A stretch of DNA of 64,000 bases, from NCBI RefSeq assembly GCF_003050965.1, contig NZ_QAOU01000001.1:682001-746000 (forward strand), given 5' to 3'. Position 1 is the stretch's first letter, and each line of letters opens with the position of its first letter. The notes beneath the pieces are model-generated. The model was not told where the DNA came from, did not search any database, and saw nothing but the letters and a program-made list of their open reading frames with translations. The DNA comes from Nitrosospira sp. Nsp2. Lineage in GTDB: Bacteria; Pseudomonadota; Gammaproteobacteria; Burkholderiales; Nitrosomonadaceae. A program made the position numbers and the translations under genes. This document shows, in pieces, positions 3,630 to 43,557 of this stretch.

Positions 3630-3762
3630 GGGCAAAAAGCCCGCCGTGCAGGCATTTGGGCGGAGTTGCGATTCAGTCCGTTAACGCTCGCTATATTGTT
3701 GGGCTTCCGATTGAATATATCGCCCTGATAGGGACGAGTTTTTGAGTAAAACCGCGCACGGC

Positions 3763-4010
3763 CATTTGTCCACAATTCCTGTGGATAAGTTTGTGGGTAA
3801 CCTATGGACGGGGTAGGTAAGTCATCTTTTTGTAACACTATTTTCTTGCATGGCTATTTTTTATACTTTATGAAAAAAGGTTTTAATTTCAAATACATAT
3901 TTTATTGCCTCTGATTAAAAGTTTTTTTCTCGACGCTATTTTAACTGCTGGCTGGCGTTACGGCGCAGCTCGAAACGGATGTGGATTAATGGCAAATGTC
4001 AATAGAAATG
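3763..4010. repeat. Repeat copy A with facing DnaA-box-like sites
   Basis: First copy of a diverged direct repeat (second at 4871-5104). The conserved core has TTGTCCACA (3766-3774) facing TGTGGATAA (3780-3788); the latter is a perfect reverse complement of the DnaA-box consensus TTATCCACA. A third box-like site TGTGGATTA lies at 3980-3988. Between them is AT-rich sequence (3840-3960). No gene is seen from 3630 to 4319. Confidence 0.7.
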
Positions 4011-13095: not shown

Positions 13096-13794
13096 TTATC
13101 CAGTAGACTCTATCGGATCCAGCAGAGCGGGCTCGTTATTAGCCGGATCGGGACGGTTCACGCCGCGAGTCACGCGCCACCATTGGAATTCTTCTGTAGC
13201 CAACGACCGGCTCTGAGCTATATGTGCCGCTTCCTCAACTGGCGTTTCCGGATCCATCCAGCGCAATGCATCCTGCGACTCTAAGACAACAGGCCGGCGG
13301 TCGTGTATGTCCACCATACCGCGTTCGGAATCCTCAGTAACAATAACAAGGCCGACCTCAACCTCTTGCTGAGCGTACAGCTGGAAATTCGTCAGCCCGG
13401 CCATGAAGATCGGTTCGTTTGTTTTACGGGAGATGTACCAGGGCTGTTTCTTGCCGTCCTCGAACGTCCATTCAAACCAGCCGCCACCAGGCACAATCAC
13501 CCGGCCTTGCCTGAACATATGCCGGAAATAACGGCCGGTAAGCGCCTTCTCTATCCGCGCATTGATCCACGGCTTGCGCTTCGCTGCGGCCTCATTCGGC
13601 GTTCTGTATCCCCACGTGACGTAATCAGAGTGAAGCTTTCCATCGAGCATGTGGAGCAGCAGGGCAGGCCGGCCGGGGCTCAGGTTGTACTGAGGAATGG
13701 TGTCGCCACCAGCCCATTCTCGCTCAAGAAGGTCGGGGAGGAGTCGGCGAGCGTAATACTGCCGCGACTCAGACTGTGCAATGCGTCCGCACAT
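13096..13794 (-). CDS. SRAP/YedK-type abasic-site DNA-protein crosslinker
   Basis: 232 residues. Catalytic Cys2 follows the initiator Met (MCGRIAQ). Other conserved positions are Asn78 in WINARIE, Glu108 in GGGWFEW and His164 in VDIHDRRP (the family usually has H.RMP). SRAP proteins (HMCES/YedK) shield abasic sites in single-stranded DNA by a thiazolidine crosslink. In a prophage it could protect phage DNA or act in SOS/anti-defence; that is inference. Convergent with hicB. Confidence 0.88.
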   Translation of the reverse strand: MCGRIAQSESRQYYARRLLPDLLEREWAGGDTIPQYNLSPGRPALLLHMLDGKLHSDYVTWGYRTPNEAAAKRKPWINARIEKALTGRYFRHMFRQGRVIVPGGGWFEWTFEDGKKQPWYISRKTNEPIFMAGLTNFQLYAQQEVEVGLVIVTEDSERGMVDIHDRRPVVLESQDALRWMDPETPVEEAAHIAQSRSLATEEFQWWRVTRGVNRPDPANNEPALLDPIESTG

Positions 13795-13803
13795 GGGGCA
13801 ACA

Positions 13804-14478
13804 TTATCCTGCGAGATTACGAGCCCGCCAACCTAACAGGGCGACCCCTGCCAACATCATCATGTAGGTTTGCGGTTCCGGGATGGCTGAAACGCTGTCC
13901 ATCACTCCTAATAGTCGCGTATCTAAAGGGTTTCCCGCTGGGGATGAAAAAACAAGGCCCAAAATATTAAAACCGCCAAAGTCCTGAAGGTTGAGCTCAC
14001 TAGGCAATGCAAAACTGGTCAAGCCGACGTTAAGGTGCCAAGGCACTTCCTGAAATTGGAAACCAAATCCCCGAGGGATCAAACCCAGCGTAGATATCGC
14101 CCCAGTTAAACCGACGTGGGTAGCGCCGCCATTAAAGTTGCTTCCCTGTCCCGGCGTTCCCGTTGAGATAAATGTTTGCAGGTTGTCGAGCGCCCCAGTT
14201 GCAGAACCCAGGACTGTGTTGACCACAAAGCTCCCTTGATTGGCGTAATTGGTAAACTCGGGTGATAGCGTCGAGGTGGGCAGGGCGTTTTCATCATAAG
14301 TGAGATACGCGGAGAACGGAGTGCCCTCAAGGCTCAGCAATTCCTGGGGAGTTTGAAGTGTATATTCAACCGACAGTTTTCCTAATATTTCCCACGTAAC
14401 CGCTTTGGCGCTGCCTGCTCCCGTTACCAAAGCCACAGCGACAAGTCCACCCGCGATCGTCTTTCCTACCGATTTCAT
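13804..14478 (-). CDS. PEP-CTERM sorting-domain protein
   Basis: 224 residues. Sec signal MKSVGKTIAGGLVAVALVTGAGSAKA. The body is Gly/Asn/Thr-rich beta with no Cys. The C-terminus is AIPEPQTYMMMLAGVALLGWRAR: a PEP motif, a transmembrane stretch and a basic end, i.e. an exosortase/archaeosortase sorting signal. It is probably exported, cut at PEP and placed on the surface or in the matrix. AAGGAG lies 6 nt before the start at 14478. Its presence inside a prophage marks it as host-interaction cargo. Confidence 0.88.
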   Translation of the reverse strand: MKSVGKTIAGGLVAVALVTGAGSAKAVTWEILGKLSVEYTLQTPQELLSLEGTPFSAYLTYDENALPTSTLSPEFTNYANQGSFVVNTVLGSATGALDNLQTFISTGTPGQGSNFNGGATHVGLTGAISTLGLIPRGFGFQFQEVPWHLNVGLTSFALPSELNLQDFGGFNILGLVFSSPAGNPLDTRLLGVMDSVSAIPEPQTYMMMLAGVALLGWRARNLAG

Positions 14479-14532
14479 CTGTATCTCCTTTTTTGTTTTT
14501 ATTGGAATCGGCACGGGGTGACGATTGATCTC

Positions 14533-16685: not shown

Positions 16686-19037
16686 ATGTCCCGCATCGAC
16701 TTCAAATACATTGCCGACGCCGCCTTATCACGCGCGGACTCCTTGTTACGGCAATGGCTCCCCGGCGGGAAGGTCGAAGGGCGGGAATACTCTGTGGTGA
16801 ACCCGCTCAGGGGCGACGGCAAGGCGGGTTCATTCAAGATCAATCTCGACACTGGCTTGTGGTCTGACTTCGCCACCGGTGACAAGGGCGGAGATTTGGT
16901 CAGCCTGTATGCCTATCTTCACGGACTTAAACAGGACGTTGCAGCGCGCGAGGTCGCGGACATTTGCGGCATCGATGTCCCAAAGGATAAGCCCGAGCCA
17001 AAAAAGCCGGACCTCAAGGTTGTAAAAACACCCTGGAAACCGATACTGCCAGCGCCTGCCGACGCTGGCCCTGGGCCTGCAGCGCATTACGCGCGTGGAA
17101 AACCCCAGAAGATTTGGACCTATCTCGACGCCAACAAGGCGATCAACGGTTTTGTGTATCGGTTCGAAACCTCCGATGGAGGCAAGGAAACCCTGCCGGT
17201 CTGTTACTGCGAGCATGAGGAGACCAAGCAGCGCGAGTGGCGCTGGCTGTCATTCCCTGAGCCTCGCCCCTTGTATGGGCTGGACCGTCTGGCCGCTAAT
17301 CCCAATCTGCCTGTGTTGCTGGTGGAAGGGGAGAAGTGCGCGGACGCCGCGGTGGAGCTGCTCCCCGAGCTCGTGATTGTCAGCTGGCCAGGCGGCAGCA
17401 AGGCGATAGACAAGGCGGACTGGTCTCCGCTTTACGGCCGCGACATTTTCGCCTGGGCGGATTGCGATGCGCAGCGCGAAAAGCTATCGAAGGATGAAAA
17501 GGCGCTCGGAGTTGACCCACTCAAGAAGCCTTTTCTGCCAGAGAACAAGCAGCCGGGCATGCGTGCAATGCTGGAGATCGGCGCGAAGCTGATAGAGGCG
17601 GACGCTAAAACAAGATTTCGCCTCATCGATATTCCCGCCCCGGGTAAGAAGCCGAACGGCTGGGATATCGCCGACGCGGTTGCAGACGGCATGAAGGCGG
17701 AGGAACTGAAAGACTTCATGCGCAAGACGCGCAAGCCTGCCGCCGAGCCGTCAAAAAGTAAATCCACGCGACAAGAGCCTTCCGGCAAGGATCGGGAAGA
17801 ATTCACCAATAACCTGCTCTGGAAAAAGGGCGAGCTCGTCGCGTGCCTGGCGAACGTCTATGACATCTTGCTCAATGACCCGAACTGGACTGGCGTGCTG
17901 GCCTATAACGCCTTCGCTTACCAGGTCGTGAAACTCAAGCCGCCGCCCTACGCTGACGGAACGGTTGGGGAGTGGGATGAGCAGGACGATATGCAGACCG
18001 CGATGTGGATGACACGCAAGTACTGTTTTGCACCATCCGCCGCGCTCACTGCCTCCGCCGCGGAAGCAATCGCGAAATCGAACAGCTTCAACCCGGTTCA
18101 AGACTACCTCACTGCCCTGAAATGGGACGGCACATCACGCATCGATGAGTGGCTGTGCGATTACCTTGGCATCGCCAAGACAGACTACTCAACACGCGTT
18201 GCCCGCTGGTTTCTGTTGGGCATGGTGGCCAGGGCGATGAAGCCGGGCGTGAAGTTCGACTACTGCCTGGTGCTCGAAGGTGAGCAGGGCAGGTTGAAAT
18301 CAACGGCGTTGAGAGTATTGGGTGGTGAATGGTTTGGCGACACTGATCTGGACCTGAACAACAAGGACAGCATGTCCGCGATTCGCGGGAAATGGCTGTA
18401 CGAATTCGCGGAGCTAGGCTCGCTGGCCAAGTCGGAAGCAACCCGGCAGAAGTCTTTCCTTTCGCGCCAGATCGATGAGTTCCGCCCGGTTTACGGTCGC
18501 AGAGAAATCCGCAGCCCACGGCAATTATGTTTCGGCGGGACCACCAACGACTGGGAATGGAACAAGGACCCAACGGGCGGCCGCCGCTTCTGGCCAATCA
18601 AGTGCGAGATCGAAGTCGATCACGCAGGACTGGCTGAGGTTCGGGACCAGCTCTTTGCTGAAGCCTATTCATTGTTCATCGCTGGCGAGCGCTATTGGCC
18701 CACAGGCGATGAGCAACGCGCGATATTCGACCCCGAGCAATTCAAGCGCACCGTGGCGGATGCCTACATCGACATGCTGCATAACTGGGTCGATGAGCAA
18801 TACAAGGAATTCACCCTGGCCGATGCGGCATTGGATTGCCTGAAGCTGGATGCATCGAAGCTAACCCGCGACGTGCAGACGCGGATCGGCAGCGCCTTGC
18901 GGCAGCTCGGCTGCACGAAGATTGAAAAACGAACACACATTATCCGGCACTGGTACAAGCCTCCCCCAAGAAATGAGGCACCGTCGACGGCTGGAAATGC
19001 ACAAGGAACGGGAGGGCCCGATGGCATTCCGTTCTAA
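16686..19037 (+). CDS. VapE-type phage primase-helicase
   Basis: 783 residues. The N-terminal region has VNPLRGDGKAGSFKINLDTGLWSDFATGDKGGDLVSLYAYL (primase-associated, PriCT/CHC2-like without zinc Cys). A TOPRIM-like part follows: LLVEGEKCADAAVELL (~210) and IFAWADCDAQ (~255). The C-terminal half is a VapE/VirE-like superfamily 3-type ATPase with Walker A in LEGEQGRLKST (~530), then WLYEFAELGSL, and GTTNDWEWNKDPTGGRRFWPIKC (sensor/arginine region). It should prime and unwind phage DNA. The iteron-rich origin candidate begins 14 bases after its stop. Confidence 0.88.
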   Translation: MSRIDFKYIADAALSRADSLLRQWLPGGKVEGREYSVVNPLRGDGKAGSFKINLDTGLWSDFATGDKGGDLVSLYAYLHGLKQDVAAREVADICGIDVPKDKPEPKKPDLKVVKTPWKPILPAPADAGPGPAAHYARGKPQKIWTYLDANKAINGFVYRFETSDGGKETLPVCYCEHEETKQREWRWLSFPEPRPLYGLDRLAANPNLPVLLVEGEKCADAAVELLPELVIVSWPGGSKAIDKADWSPLYGRDIFAWADCDAQREKLSKDEKALGVDPLKKPFLPENKQPGMRAMLEIGAKLIEADAKTRFRLIDIPAPGKKPNGWDIADAVADGMKAEELKDFMRKTRKPAAEPSKSKSTRQEPSGKDREEFTNNLLWKKGELVACLANVYDILLNDPNWTGVLAYNAFAYQVVKLKPPPYADGTVGEWDEQDDMQTAMWMTRKYCFAPSAALTASAAEAIAKSNSFNPVQDYLTALKWDGTSRIDEWLCDYLGIAKTDYSTRVARWFLLGMVARAMKPGVKFDYCLVLEGEQGRLKSTALRVLGGEWFGDTDLDLNNKDSMSAIRGKWLYEFAELGSLAKSEATRQKSFLSRQIDEFRPVYGRREIRSPRQLCFGGTTNDWEWNKDPTGGRRFWPIKCEIEVDHAGLAEVRDQLFAEAYSLFIAGERYWPTGDEQRAIFDPEQFKRTVADAYIDMLHNWVDEQYKEFTLADAALDCLKLDASKLTRDVQTRIGSALRQLGCTKIEKRTHIIRHWYKPPPRNEAPSTAGNAQGTGGPDGIPF

Positions 19038-19050
19038 AGGTTCGCGCAGA

Positions 19051-19295
19051 GGTATGGAAGGTATGGAGCAGGTATGGAACCCTGAAAGCCGCGTGGATAG
19101 GGCTTGTTCCATACCTCCATACCTTCCACACCATTTTCCCTTGCGCACACACACGTACACACACACGCGCGCACGCGCGCACGCATGTGCATATACACAT
19201 CATTTTCAGTATGGAAGGTATGGAGGTATGGAAGAGTCAACAAAGACGCGGGTTTCAGGCTTCCATACCTTATCCACACCTTCAGGAGGTATGGA
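19051..19295. repeat. Origin-like region: GGTATGGA iterons flanking a Z-DNA-type tract
   Basis: GGTATGGA occurs at 19051, 19060, 19071, 19217, 19225 and 19288, a one-mismatch copy at 19208, and its reverse complement TCCATACC at 19108, 19116 and 19262, with variants TCCACACC at 19125 and 19273. Direct and inverted clusters can form two hairpins. Between them, 19142-19200 is 59 bases of uninterrupted purine-pyrimidine alternation (CA/CG/TA steps). It lies directly after the primase-helicase gene. Confidence 0.75.
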
Positions 19296-19298
19296 ACT

Positions 19299-19547
19299 TT
19301 GACTCAGGAAACCCAGCCGGTAACGGCAGAGCAGGTGAGGGCGGCATTCCCAGAGTGTGTGGGCATTGCAGATGAGTTCAGGGACGTGTTCGGGCCCGGC
19401 GTGACGCTCAACTATGCCAGCGAGAATGGGCGGTCTATCGGTAGGCAAACACCGCCATCCCCCGAAACCACCCTGACCCTTTCCCAAATGGTGATCGAGG
19501 TGCCGGAGGAAGAACCGGAAAAGCAGGGGAGGCGCAATGGAAGATAG
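19299..19547 (+). CDS. Hypothetical phage protein (82 aa), TTG start
   Basis: Starts TQETQPVTAEQVRAAFPECVG after a TTG preceded by AGGAGG (19284-19289, 9 nt). It contains FRDVFGPGVTLNYASENGRSIG and an acidic tail. The ribosome binding site overlaps the last iteron of the origin-like region, so binding there could affect translation or transcription. Not recognised. Confidence 0.55.
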   Translation: MTQETQPVTAEQVRAAFPECVGIADEFRDVFGPGVTLNYASENGRSIGRQTPPSPETTLTLSQMVIEVPEEEPEKQGRRNGR

Positions 19548-42990: not shown

Positions 42991-43557
42991 ATGGAAAAAC
43001 AAATAGAACAATTTGCGCCCCTGGTGCGAAGCATCGCATCCCGCATGAAGGCGCATCTGCCCGCATGTGTCGAGCGCGACGATCTGATTCAAGTAGGAAT
43101 GATGGGTTTGATGCAGGCCCTGAATCGATACGAGGAAATGCCAGGGGCGAAATTCGAGACTTACGCGAGCCACCGGATCAAGGGCGCGATGCTTGATGAG
43201 CTGAGGCGCGAGGATTGGGGTCCGCGCCGGGCTCTCAGGAAAGGCGATGAGATTGTTTACAGCATGGTGAGTATTGACGACTTGCCGTCTGAACAGCTCG
43301 TGTCTCTCCATGCACGGCATTCTGATGAGGTTACGCCGCTGGACAGGCTGATGGAGAAGGAAAGGGTTTTCGCGGCGGTAGCGGCGATAGCAAACCTACC
43401 TGAGCGGGAAAAGAACGTGATCGATATGTACTACGGGCAAGACATGACGCACCGAGACATTGGAAATGAATTGGGCGTGAGCGAATCAAGGGTATGCCAG
43501 TTGCTTAAACGTTCGCTTGGGCACTTGAACGAAATATATAACAGCCGGAATCCATAG
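42991..43557 (+). CDS. FliA-like (sigma-28 family) RNA polymerase sigma factor, region 3 reduced
   Basis: 188 residues. Region 2: FAPLVRSIASRMKAHLPACVERDDLIQVGMMGLMQALNRYE and FETYASHRIKGAMLDELRREDWGPRR, closely FliA-like. Region 4: LPEREKNVIDMYYGQDMTHRDIGNELGVSESRVCQLLKRSLGHL. FliA is ~240 residues; the missing ~45 are in region 3. It should redirect RNA polymerase, perhaps to lysis or host genes. The start directly follows a terminator T-run without a ribosome binding site, so expression may depend on read-through and be weak. Confidence 0.85.
   Translation: MEKQIEQFAPLVRSIASRMKAHLPACVERDDLIQVGMMGLMQALNRYEEMPGAKFETYASHRIKGAMLDELRREDWGPRRALRKGDEIVYSMVSIDDLPSEQLVSLHARHSDEVTPLDRLMEKERVFAAVAAIANLPEREKNVIDMYYGQDMTHRDIGNELGVSESRVCQLLKRSLGHLNEIYNSRNP

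Follow-up and report, generated by a model that had tools for sequence, protein, structure and literature searches.

A Candidate Prophage Replication Origin with Inverted Octamer Blocks around an Alternating Purine–Pyrimidine Tract 3′ of vapE in Nitrosospira sp. Nsp2

Organization of the Octamer Array 3′ of vapE

The array is located at positions 19051–19295 of a 64-kb stretch of Nitrosospira sp. Nsp2 DNA (64,000 nt of contig NZ_QAOU01000001.1; hereafter the window), directly 3′ of the gene of a VapE-type primase-helicase. Judged from comparison with related loci, it is very probably the replication origin of the prophage that carries it, as a first-pass annotation of the window had proposed. 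The explanation that best covers the whole, and that we consider highly likely, is a prophage origin in which octamers are read by VapE, two opposed helicase rings are assembled, and the duplex is opened in an alternating purine–pyrimidine tract. Its layout, its linkage to vapE, the covariation between a VapE residue and the octamer bases, and the preservation of alternation are all supported by the sequences compared.

Nine exact copies of the octamer GGTATGGA/TCCATACC were found in the array; these are all the copies of GGTATGGA in the window, where 1.15 were expected, and none of 100 shuffles reached nine. From left to right, the array consists of the outer left octamers (19051–19078, forward strand, with copies at 19051, 19060 and 19071); the 29-bp element B (19079–19107), lying between facing octamers 37 bp apart; the inner left triple (19108–19132, reverse strand, with exact copies at 19108 and 19116 and the near match GGTGTGGA at 19125), a triple that is conserved; the tract; the inner right triple (19208–19232, forward strand, with the near match AGTATGGA at 19208 and exact copies at 19217 and 19225); element B′ (19233–19261), an inverted copy of B; and the outer right octamers (19262–19295), with exact copies at 19262 (reverse) and 19288 (forward) and GGTGTGGA at 19273 (reverse). 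The tract at the dyad centre is a perfect alternating purine–pyrimidine run of 59 bp (19142–19200); no other run of this kind in the window reaches 20 bp. Each block repeats the other in inverted orientation, with 75-bp arms (19057–19131 and 19209–19283, the latter including B′) that are 80% complementary, and the layout can be written as the dyad > B < < < [tract] > > > B′ <. The two blocks of at least nine direct and inverted octamers around the 59-bp run, reported in the first-pass annotation, were thus confirmed with exact coordinates, and the three near-match octamers were added. The first octamer starts 13 bp after the end of the VapE gene (16686–19037). The last (19288–19295) overlaps AGGAGG (19284–19289), upstream of a TTG start at 19299, in agreement with the overlap with a ribosome-binding site noted before.

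When the 3.46-Mb genome was scanned for pairs of octamers (gap 0–12), four matches were obtained, all inside the array; a control with the pattern read backwards gave identical counts, because the array also contains AGGTATGG. A role as an RNA or single-stranded DNA hairpin was considered and rejected: in the window, the left block gives a very good fold (z −7.9), yet the outer octamers of relatives change orientation, and no stem with convincing covariation was found in element B. All Rfam matches were under the gathering score.

Linkage of the Array to vapE in Related Phages

VapE relatives were collected from viral contigs and species genomes, giving 119 loci, among them the prophage of the window itself (L121) as well as some prophages present in both collections; two loci with too little DNA 3′ of the gene were dropped, and 117 were examined. 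At least five octamers of the family GGTNNGGA were found within 420 bp 3′ of the gene in 89 of the 117 loci (76 distinct), so that the arrays which the first-pass annotation had suggested looking for beside other vapE genes are indeed present. The 28 loci below the threshold comprise 12 distant ones (L165–L176), L232, whose array was concealed from the script by a frameshift, and a remainder in which most have two to five octamers.

The plan common to the relatives is the same, > B < < < tract > > > B′ <, with 9-bp spacing inside the triples. Facing octamers were 37 bp apart in 67 of 77 measurable left blocks and in 61 of 68 measurable right blocks (85 loci), and the outer extra octamers differed in number and direction between relatives. 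Element B, with the consensus AgCCtgaAAgCCgcg... built from 66 distinct sequences, adjoins the distal octamer and is conserved in both half-sites of most measured relatives.

The linkage was also found when the arrays, and not the gene, were the starting point, many of the contigs being the same as those of the gene-first set. Among the matches listed by a pattern scan (at least 120 loci), 15 had at least five octamers in 320 bp, and 12 of these lie 3′ of a VapE frame; the other three (L049, L113 and L114) have no VapE and no dyad spacing, their octamers following in steps such as 12, 15, 24 and 30 bp. Two complete scans of the viral contigs for triple octamers gave 33 and 44 stretches, and in 69 of these 77 a VapE frame ends within 900 bp upstream. 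The remaining stretches were one half array that ends at the contig end (L475) and seven plain tandem repeats without a dyad. Among 369 genomes of the class, no close relative was found except the window's own. In 399 genomes of the order, seven others were detected at E 1e-100, and two of these, L422 and L423, carry GGTNNGGA arrays.

Covariation of the Octamer Class with Residue 755 of VapE

By their two central bases, 870 of the 924 octamers in the 89 loci fell into two classes, GGT-RT-GGA (RT, 481) and GGT-TR-GGA (TR, 389), and both classes occurred together in a single locus (L141, with 1 and 12 octamers). A class was called when a locus had at least three octamers of one class and at most one of the other. 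After VapE rows with stops, with fewer than 200 aa or with an identical C-terminal stretch had been dropped, 84 sequences were left (48 RT and 36 TR). Column 755 separated all 84: F (42), H (5) or S (1) was found with RT octamers, and Y (33) or R (3) with TR octamers. The mutual information of this column with the octamer class was 0.95 bit, against 0.40 bit for the next-best column. In the models, a winged helix is predicted at the C-terminus, and residue 755 sits in its wing strand. The VapE of Nitrosospira sp. Nsp11 (L139) is of the TR type.

In a quick tree of the helicase domain, built with the C-terminus excluded and carrying a long-branch warning, 13 class switches were counted, at least seven of them forced by well-supported branches. 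Residue 755 followed the class in all seven independent pairs (sign test, p 0.016), and the rule was obeyed by 50 of 50 representatives after thinning at 70% identity. It also held in 16 of 16 array-found loci outside the 84, ten TR (R in nine, Y in one) and six RT (all F); none of these is more than 79% identical to the training set, and they include the close pairs L430/L447 and L451/L455 as well as L446, which is from the contig of L232. The sequence nearest to L497 is TR (65%), yet L497 has F with RT octamers. Another 22 loci formed a mixed set, with some contigs present twice; all 12 of them with GGTNNGGA arrays combined F or H with RT octamers, among them L017 and L116 at 35–36% identity.

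Because residue 755 separates the classes across these switches and in the outside loci, VapE is very probably the reader of the octamer, and the covariation points to direct reading by its wing. The first-pass annotation had named either VapE or a 52-residue partner as the binder: the first of these was favored, whereas relatives of the 52-residue protein were found by tblastn (E 0.01) in just 4 of 73 loci, a search in which a short protein can be missed. The 107-aa protein and the CII-like protein of the window, with relatives in 2 and 15 of the 73 loci, were likewise rejected as octamer readers.

Conservation and Possible Role of the Alternating Tract

The centres of 85 distinct arrays were compared, using gaps of 63–103 bp that were picked by their octamers and not by alternation. 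On average, 0.84 of the steps in the inner part of the gaps alternated, versus 0.51 in shuffled sequences and 0.52 in windows drawn at random from these loci; 83 of the 85 gaps exceeded the 99th percentile of the shuffles, and thinned sets agreed. The tract singled out in the first-pass annotation is accordingly a conserved part of the array, but it is the alternation that is conserved and not the sequence, and the tracts are mixed sequences rather than simple repeats. Compared with random placement, the observed transversions between relatives preserved more of the alternation in 45 of 50 directions from 25 pairs (46 of 52 when the pair L220/L221 is included), the two directions of one pair not being independent; three more pairs had zero transversions. 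In eight hand-picked pairs of the same length, two of them without differences and L179 used twice, 16 transitions and 4 transversions were counted in the inner tract. In L134 (around 3716–3800), the centre is a long G+C-rich palindrome with an alternation of 0.75, in which the longest alternating run is just 10 bp.

The suggestion that the tract melts easily was not supported, as far as thermal stability is concerned. The mean G+C content of the 85 gaps was 0.62 (0.53 in the window), and three gaps were at or below 0.40 (L141, L144 and L230). When ranked by energy, the median gap was more stable than 83% of the same-length windows of its own locus, and the window's tract more stable than 54%; none of the 85 was among the 5% least stable windows, and eight were among the 25% least stable.

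A long alternating purine–pyrimidine run, as is characteristic of Z-DNA-forming sequences, was found at the centre. Under negative supercoiling, the sequences that reach the Z form most readily are certain alternating ones, with CG runs foremost (PMC3024258). In the tracts, CG and GC make up 40% of the steps, CA, AC, GT and TG 36%, and TA and AT 7%. The tract may be the opening zone, in which CG, GC, CA and TG steps would absorb negative twist, possibly by a flip to Z-DNA. The alternating centre could help by taking up negative twist as Z-DNA, by its flexible B-form steps, or in priming. A role without Z-DNA, as flexible pyrimidine–purine B-form steps, a phased spacer or priming sites, is a serious contender that we place only slightly below an even balance: the gaps range in length between 63 and 103 bp, some members alternate at just ∼0.7, and the inner triples are bordered by short T-rich edges that persist beside the tract, whereas the steps themselves are the Z-prone set.

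The alternation could also be a functionless mutational by-product of dinucleotide expansion at the origin. Slippage can lengthen runs of CA and CG, and the transition/transversion comparison did not separate the tract (0.565) from third codon positions (0.614; p 0.22), the adjoining left blocks giving 0.41. We nevertheless regard this as unlikely, given that alternation is kept in mixed sequences and by transversions, and that alternating stretches also lie beside other iterons.

Proposed Mechanism and Comparison with Known Systems

In the proposed mechanism, VapE is a primase fused to a self-loading helicase, and its C-terminal winged helix would bind the octamers. Wing residue 755 would read the two central bases, with H, F or S directing recognition of GGT-A/G-T-GGA and Y or R of GGT-T-A/G-GGA. 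Each of the inverted half-sites (> B < < <) would load one helicase ring, so that two rings in opposite orientations would flank the tract; the rings may force the duplex open between them, whereupon the fused primase would start synthesis. What we infer from the comparisons, in this scheme, is that the element acts as an origin, that VapE contacts the octamers directly, that rings assemble, that the duplex opens in the tract and that Z-DNA forms.

Comparable origins are known from elements of staphylococci and Escherichia coli. The Rep protein of Staphylococcus aureus pathogenicity islands (SaPIs) reads iterons directly 3′ of the rep gene through its C-terminal domain, apparently as two hexamers (PMC6092414, PMC7581432), and in the mapped origins of E. 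coli phage-inducible chromosomal islands (PICIs) an AT-rich region is always flanked by two iteron sets (PMC6092414). As in those origins, the array lies immediately 3′ of a replication helicase gene, has two iteron sets flanking a centre in the window and in relatives, and would be recognized by the C-terminal domain of the helicase, to judge by covariation. Its centre differs, being alternating, of high mean G+C content and usually not AT-rich. By analogy, the origin very probably works like SaPI and PICI origins except in the centre; since an AT-rich centre was looked for and not found, it was not classed as a plain PICI-type origin. Because the element fits the SaPI/PICI working model except for the centre, we propose that a pair of VapE rings sits on the inverted triples in opposite orientation and opens the duplex in between. 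The dyad with 9-bp triples, the 37-bp facing pairs and element B are the array's own features.

The putative origin of Cch2 of the staphylococcal cassette chromosome mec (SCCmec) resembles the array in having repeats 3′ of the helicase gene that are bound by the helicase C-terminal domain; it differs in its 5-nt iteron, AAGTG, present in three copies, and in a helicase described with a Primase_Cterm/D5-type domain. At the simian virus 40 (SV40) origin, two opposed ring helicases of large T antigen open the duplex between them (PMC9894130), as proposed here, whereas recognition is by the N-terminal domain. Among solved structures, PriRep1 (7pds, "similar to D. nodosus vapE") comes closest to the VapE helicase domain both in sequence and in fold, and no residue–iteron rule for it was seen in the sources consulted. 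A primase-helicase with octamer-like iterons also acts at the origin of phage P4 (alpha protein, ori/crr). The possible "new type" of origin suggested in the first-pass annotation could hence not be fully upheld, because SaPI, PICI and SCC elements have iteron origins 3′ of such helicases; what stands apart is the alternating centre. No earlier description of the array element was found among the papers listed by searches of the open-access literature (in several cases the best 10–15 of many), and as most subscription journals were outside the search, one may have been published.

The usual expectation is that an origin opens in AT-rich DNA; in this origin-like element, a rather stable, Z-prone centre is kept across many phages, and a role of Z-DNA in bacterial replication initiation therefore becomes testable. 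The rule of one residue and one dinucleotide, with many independent switches, shows how phage initiators may change origin specificity, and it offers a simple route to find such origins and to predict the iteron class from the protein. A wider generalization, namely a class of origins widespread in proteobacterial VapE phages with a Z-DNA supercoil switch between inverted helicase-loading sites and an iteron set by one wing residue, is tentative, and we lean somewhat against it.

Evaluation of the Origin Assignment

Several observations weigh against the assignment or narrow it. The cumulative GC skew does not change direction at the array. Nine of the ten new TR loci, those with R, are all nearest to one lineage (L162/L164). 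In the other 10 of the 22 mixed-set loci, no GGTNNGGA array was found. The rule for residue 755 applies within the GGTNNGGA family, and beyond it the residue does not predict the iteron: L424 has H without a GGTNNGGA array, and L044 has I with two copies of GGTATGGA. Two of the 85 gaps (L220 and L150) were not over the 99th percentile of the shuffles; that of L220 shows no alternation (0.45, the lowest of the 85). To these may be added the unseparated transition/transversion ratios given above. Finally, because the array overlaps a ribosome-binding site, a regulatory role may coexist with that of an origin.

A purely regulatory region, through which VapE or another protein would control late transcription or the translation of the next gene while replication starts elsewhere, is quite improbable. 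The array does lie between vapE and the terminase genes, with its last octamer over the ribosome-binding site; however, the octamer tracks a helicase residue, the downstream gene (19299–19547, forward strand, 82 aa, TTG start) has relatives in 12 of 73 loci and so is not generally conserved, promoters are not usually built as dyads of fixed spacing around an unusual, conserved centre, and helicases of this kind are known to bind origins 3′ of their own genes. That the array serves in packaging, as a cos or pac site recognized by the small subunit of terminase, is very improbable indeed: the window's small terminase gene lies ∼1.1 kb downstream and long frames lie ∼1.3–2.8 kb downstream in other loci (39 of the 41 scanned are large terminases), but the 41 frames divide between two Pfam families (25 GpA-type, 14 TerL-type, 2 neither) with the array unchanged, so that no linkage to one terminase type was found, and the octamer class follows VapE.

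Similar Layouts beyond the GGTNNGGA Family

In Pseudomonas phage vB_Pae_U5 (L246, 4560–4850), the same plan was observed: iterons of the GTGGGACA/AGTAGGAC type flank an alternating stretch, and a short annotated gene lies between the primase and the array. As a named isolate, this phage could be used as a laboratory model; phage Haddon is a further named relative. By eye and more weakly, a similar plan was seen in Variovorax phage VarioGold, Acidovorax phage Aval and the loci L239, L367, L426 and L427. In Burkholderia phage Mica, no comparable array was found in the 1.2 kb examined.

Pseudomonas-type relatives were analyzed in 42 of 80 loci, which gave 35 distinct best windows of 45 bp. The plan recurs there with GTGGGACA/GTAGGACA-type iterons and weaker alternation: the mean of the best windows was 0.79 versus a background of 0.70 (95th percentile, 0.76), and in 8 of the 35 the best window, although no more than 330 bp from the end of the gene, fell outside the iterons. 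In three examples inspected, an AT-rich part lay beside the tract. Across L247–L326 the iteron varies (GTGGGACA, GTAGGACA, ATGGGACA), and the wing residues seem to follow it, often Q with GTG and V with GTA, with exceptions and in few lineages. A sequence like element B was seen by eye in Pseudomonas-type origins that use another iteron. The distant VapE loci L170–L173 and L176 (Selenomonadales, Elusimicrobia, Muribaculum and Saccharibacteria bins) have other iterons in AT-rich surroundings, again by eye.

The VapE Protein and the Surrounding Prophage

The VapE gene (16686–19037, forward strand) encodes 783 aa with a match to PF05272 (E 1.8e-70). The protein has an N-terminal primase-like part, a VapE/SF3-type helicase domain (475–680) and a C-terminal winged helix (∼690–760), and its residue 755 is H. 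The best PDB structure match of its AlphaFold model (mean predicted local distance difference test score, 87) was 7pds, PriRep1 with double-stranded DNA (E 3e-28). A profile search likewise returned 7pds (E 3e-76), as well as the DNA primase 1d0q over positions 26–96 (E 1.3e-5). With a VapE-like domain and the PriRep1 fold, the protein belongs with the VapE/PriRep1-type helicases. The modelled C-terminal fragment consists of helices and a two-strand wing; its PDB matches were weak, the best having an E value of 0.047 and none reaching 0.001, and the top ranks included DNA-binding winged-helix domains, such as those of TFE and FOXO, beside methyltransferases.

The neighborhood contains a repressor-type gene, a CII-like regulator and terminase genes, together with portal, protease, head and tail genes, and the array was therefore assigned to the prophage of a tailed phage. 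Calculated from its contig range, the corresponding IMG/VR record covers ∼5984–47260 of the window. Within this predicted span, an SRAP-family gene and a gene for a PEP-CTERM protein lie on the minus strand (13096–14514) beside the repressor-type gene, and a gene for a 188-aa RNA polymerase sigma factor-like protein (PHROG 351, E 6e-34) is located at 42991–43557.
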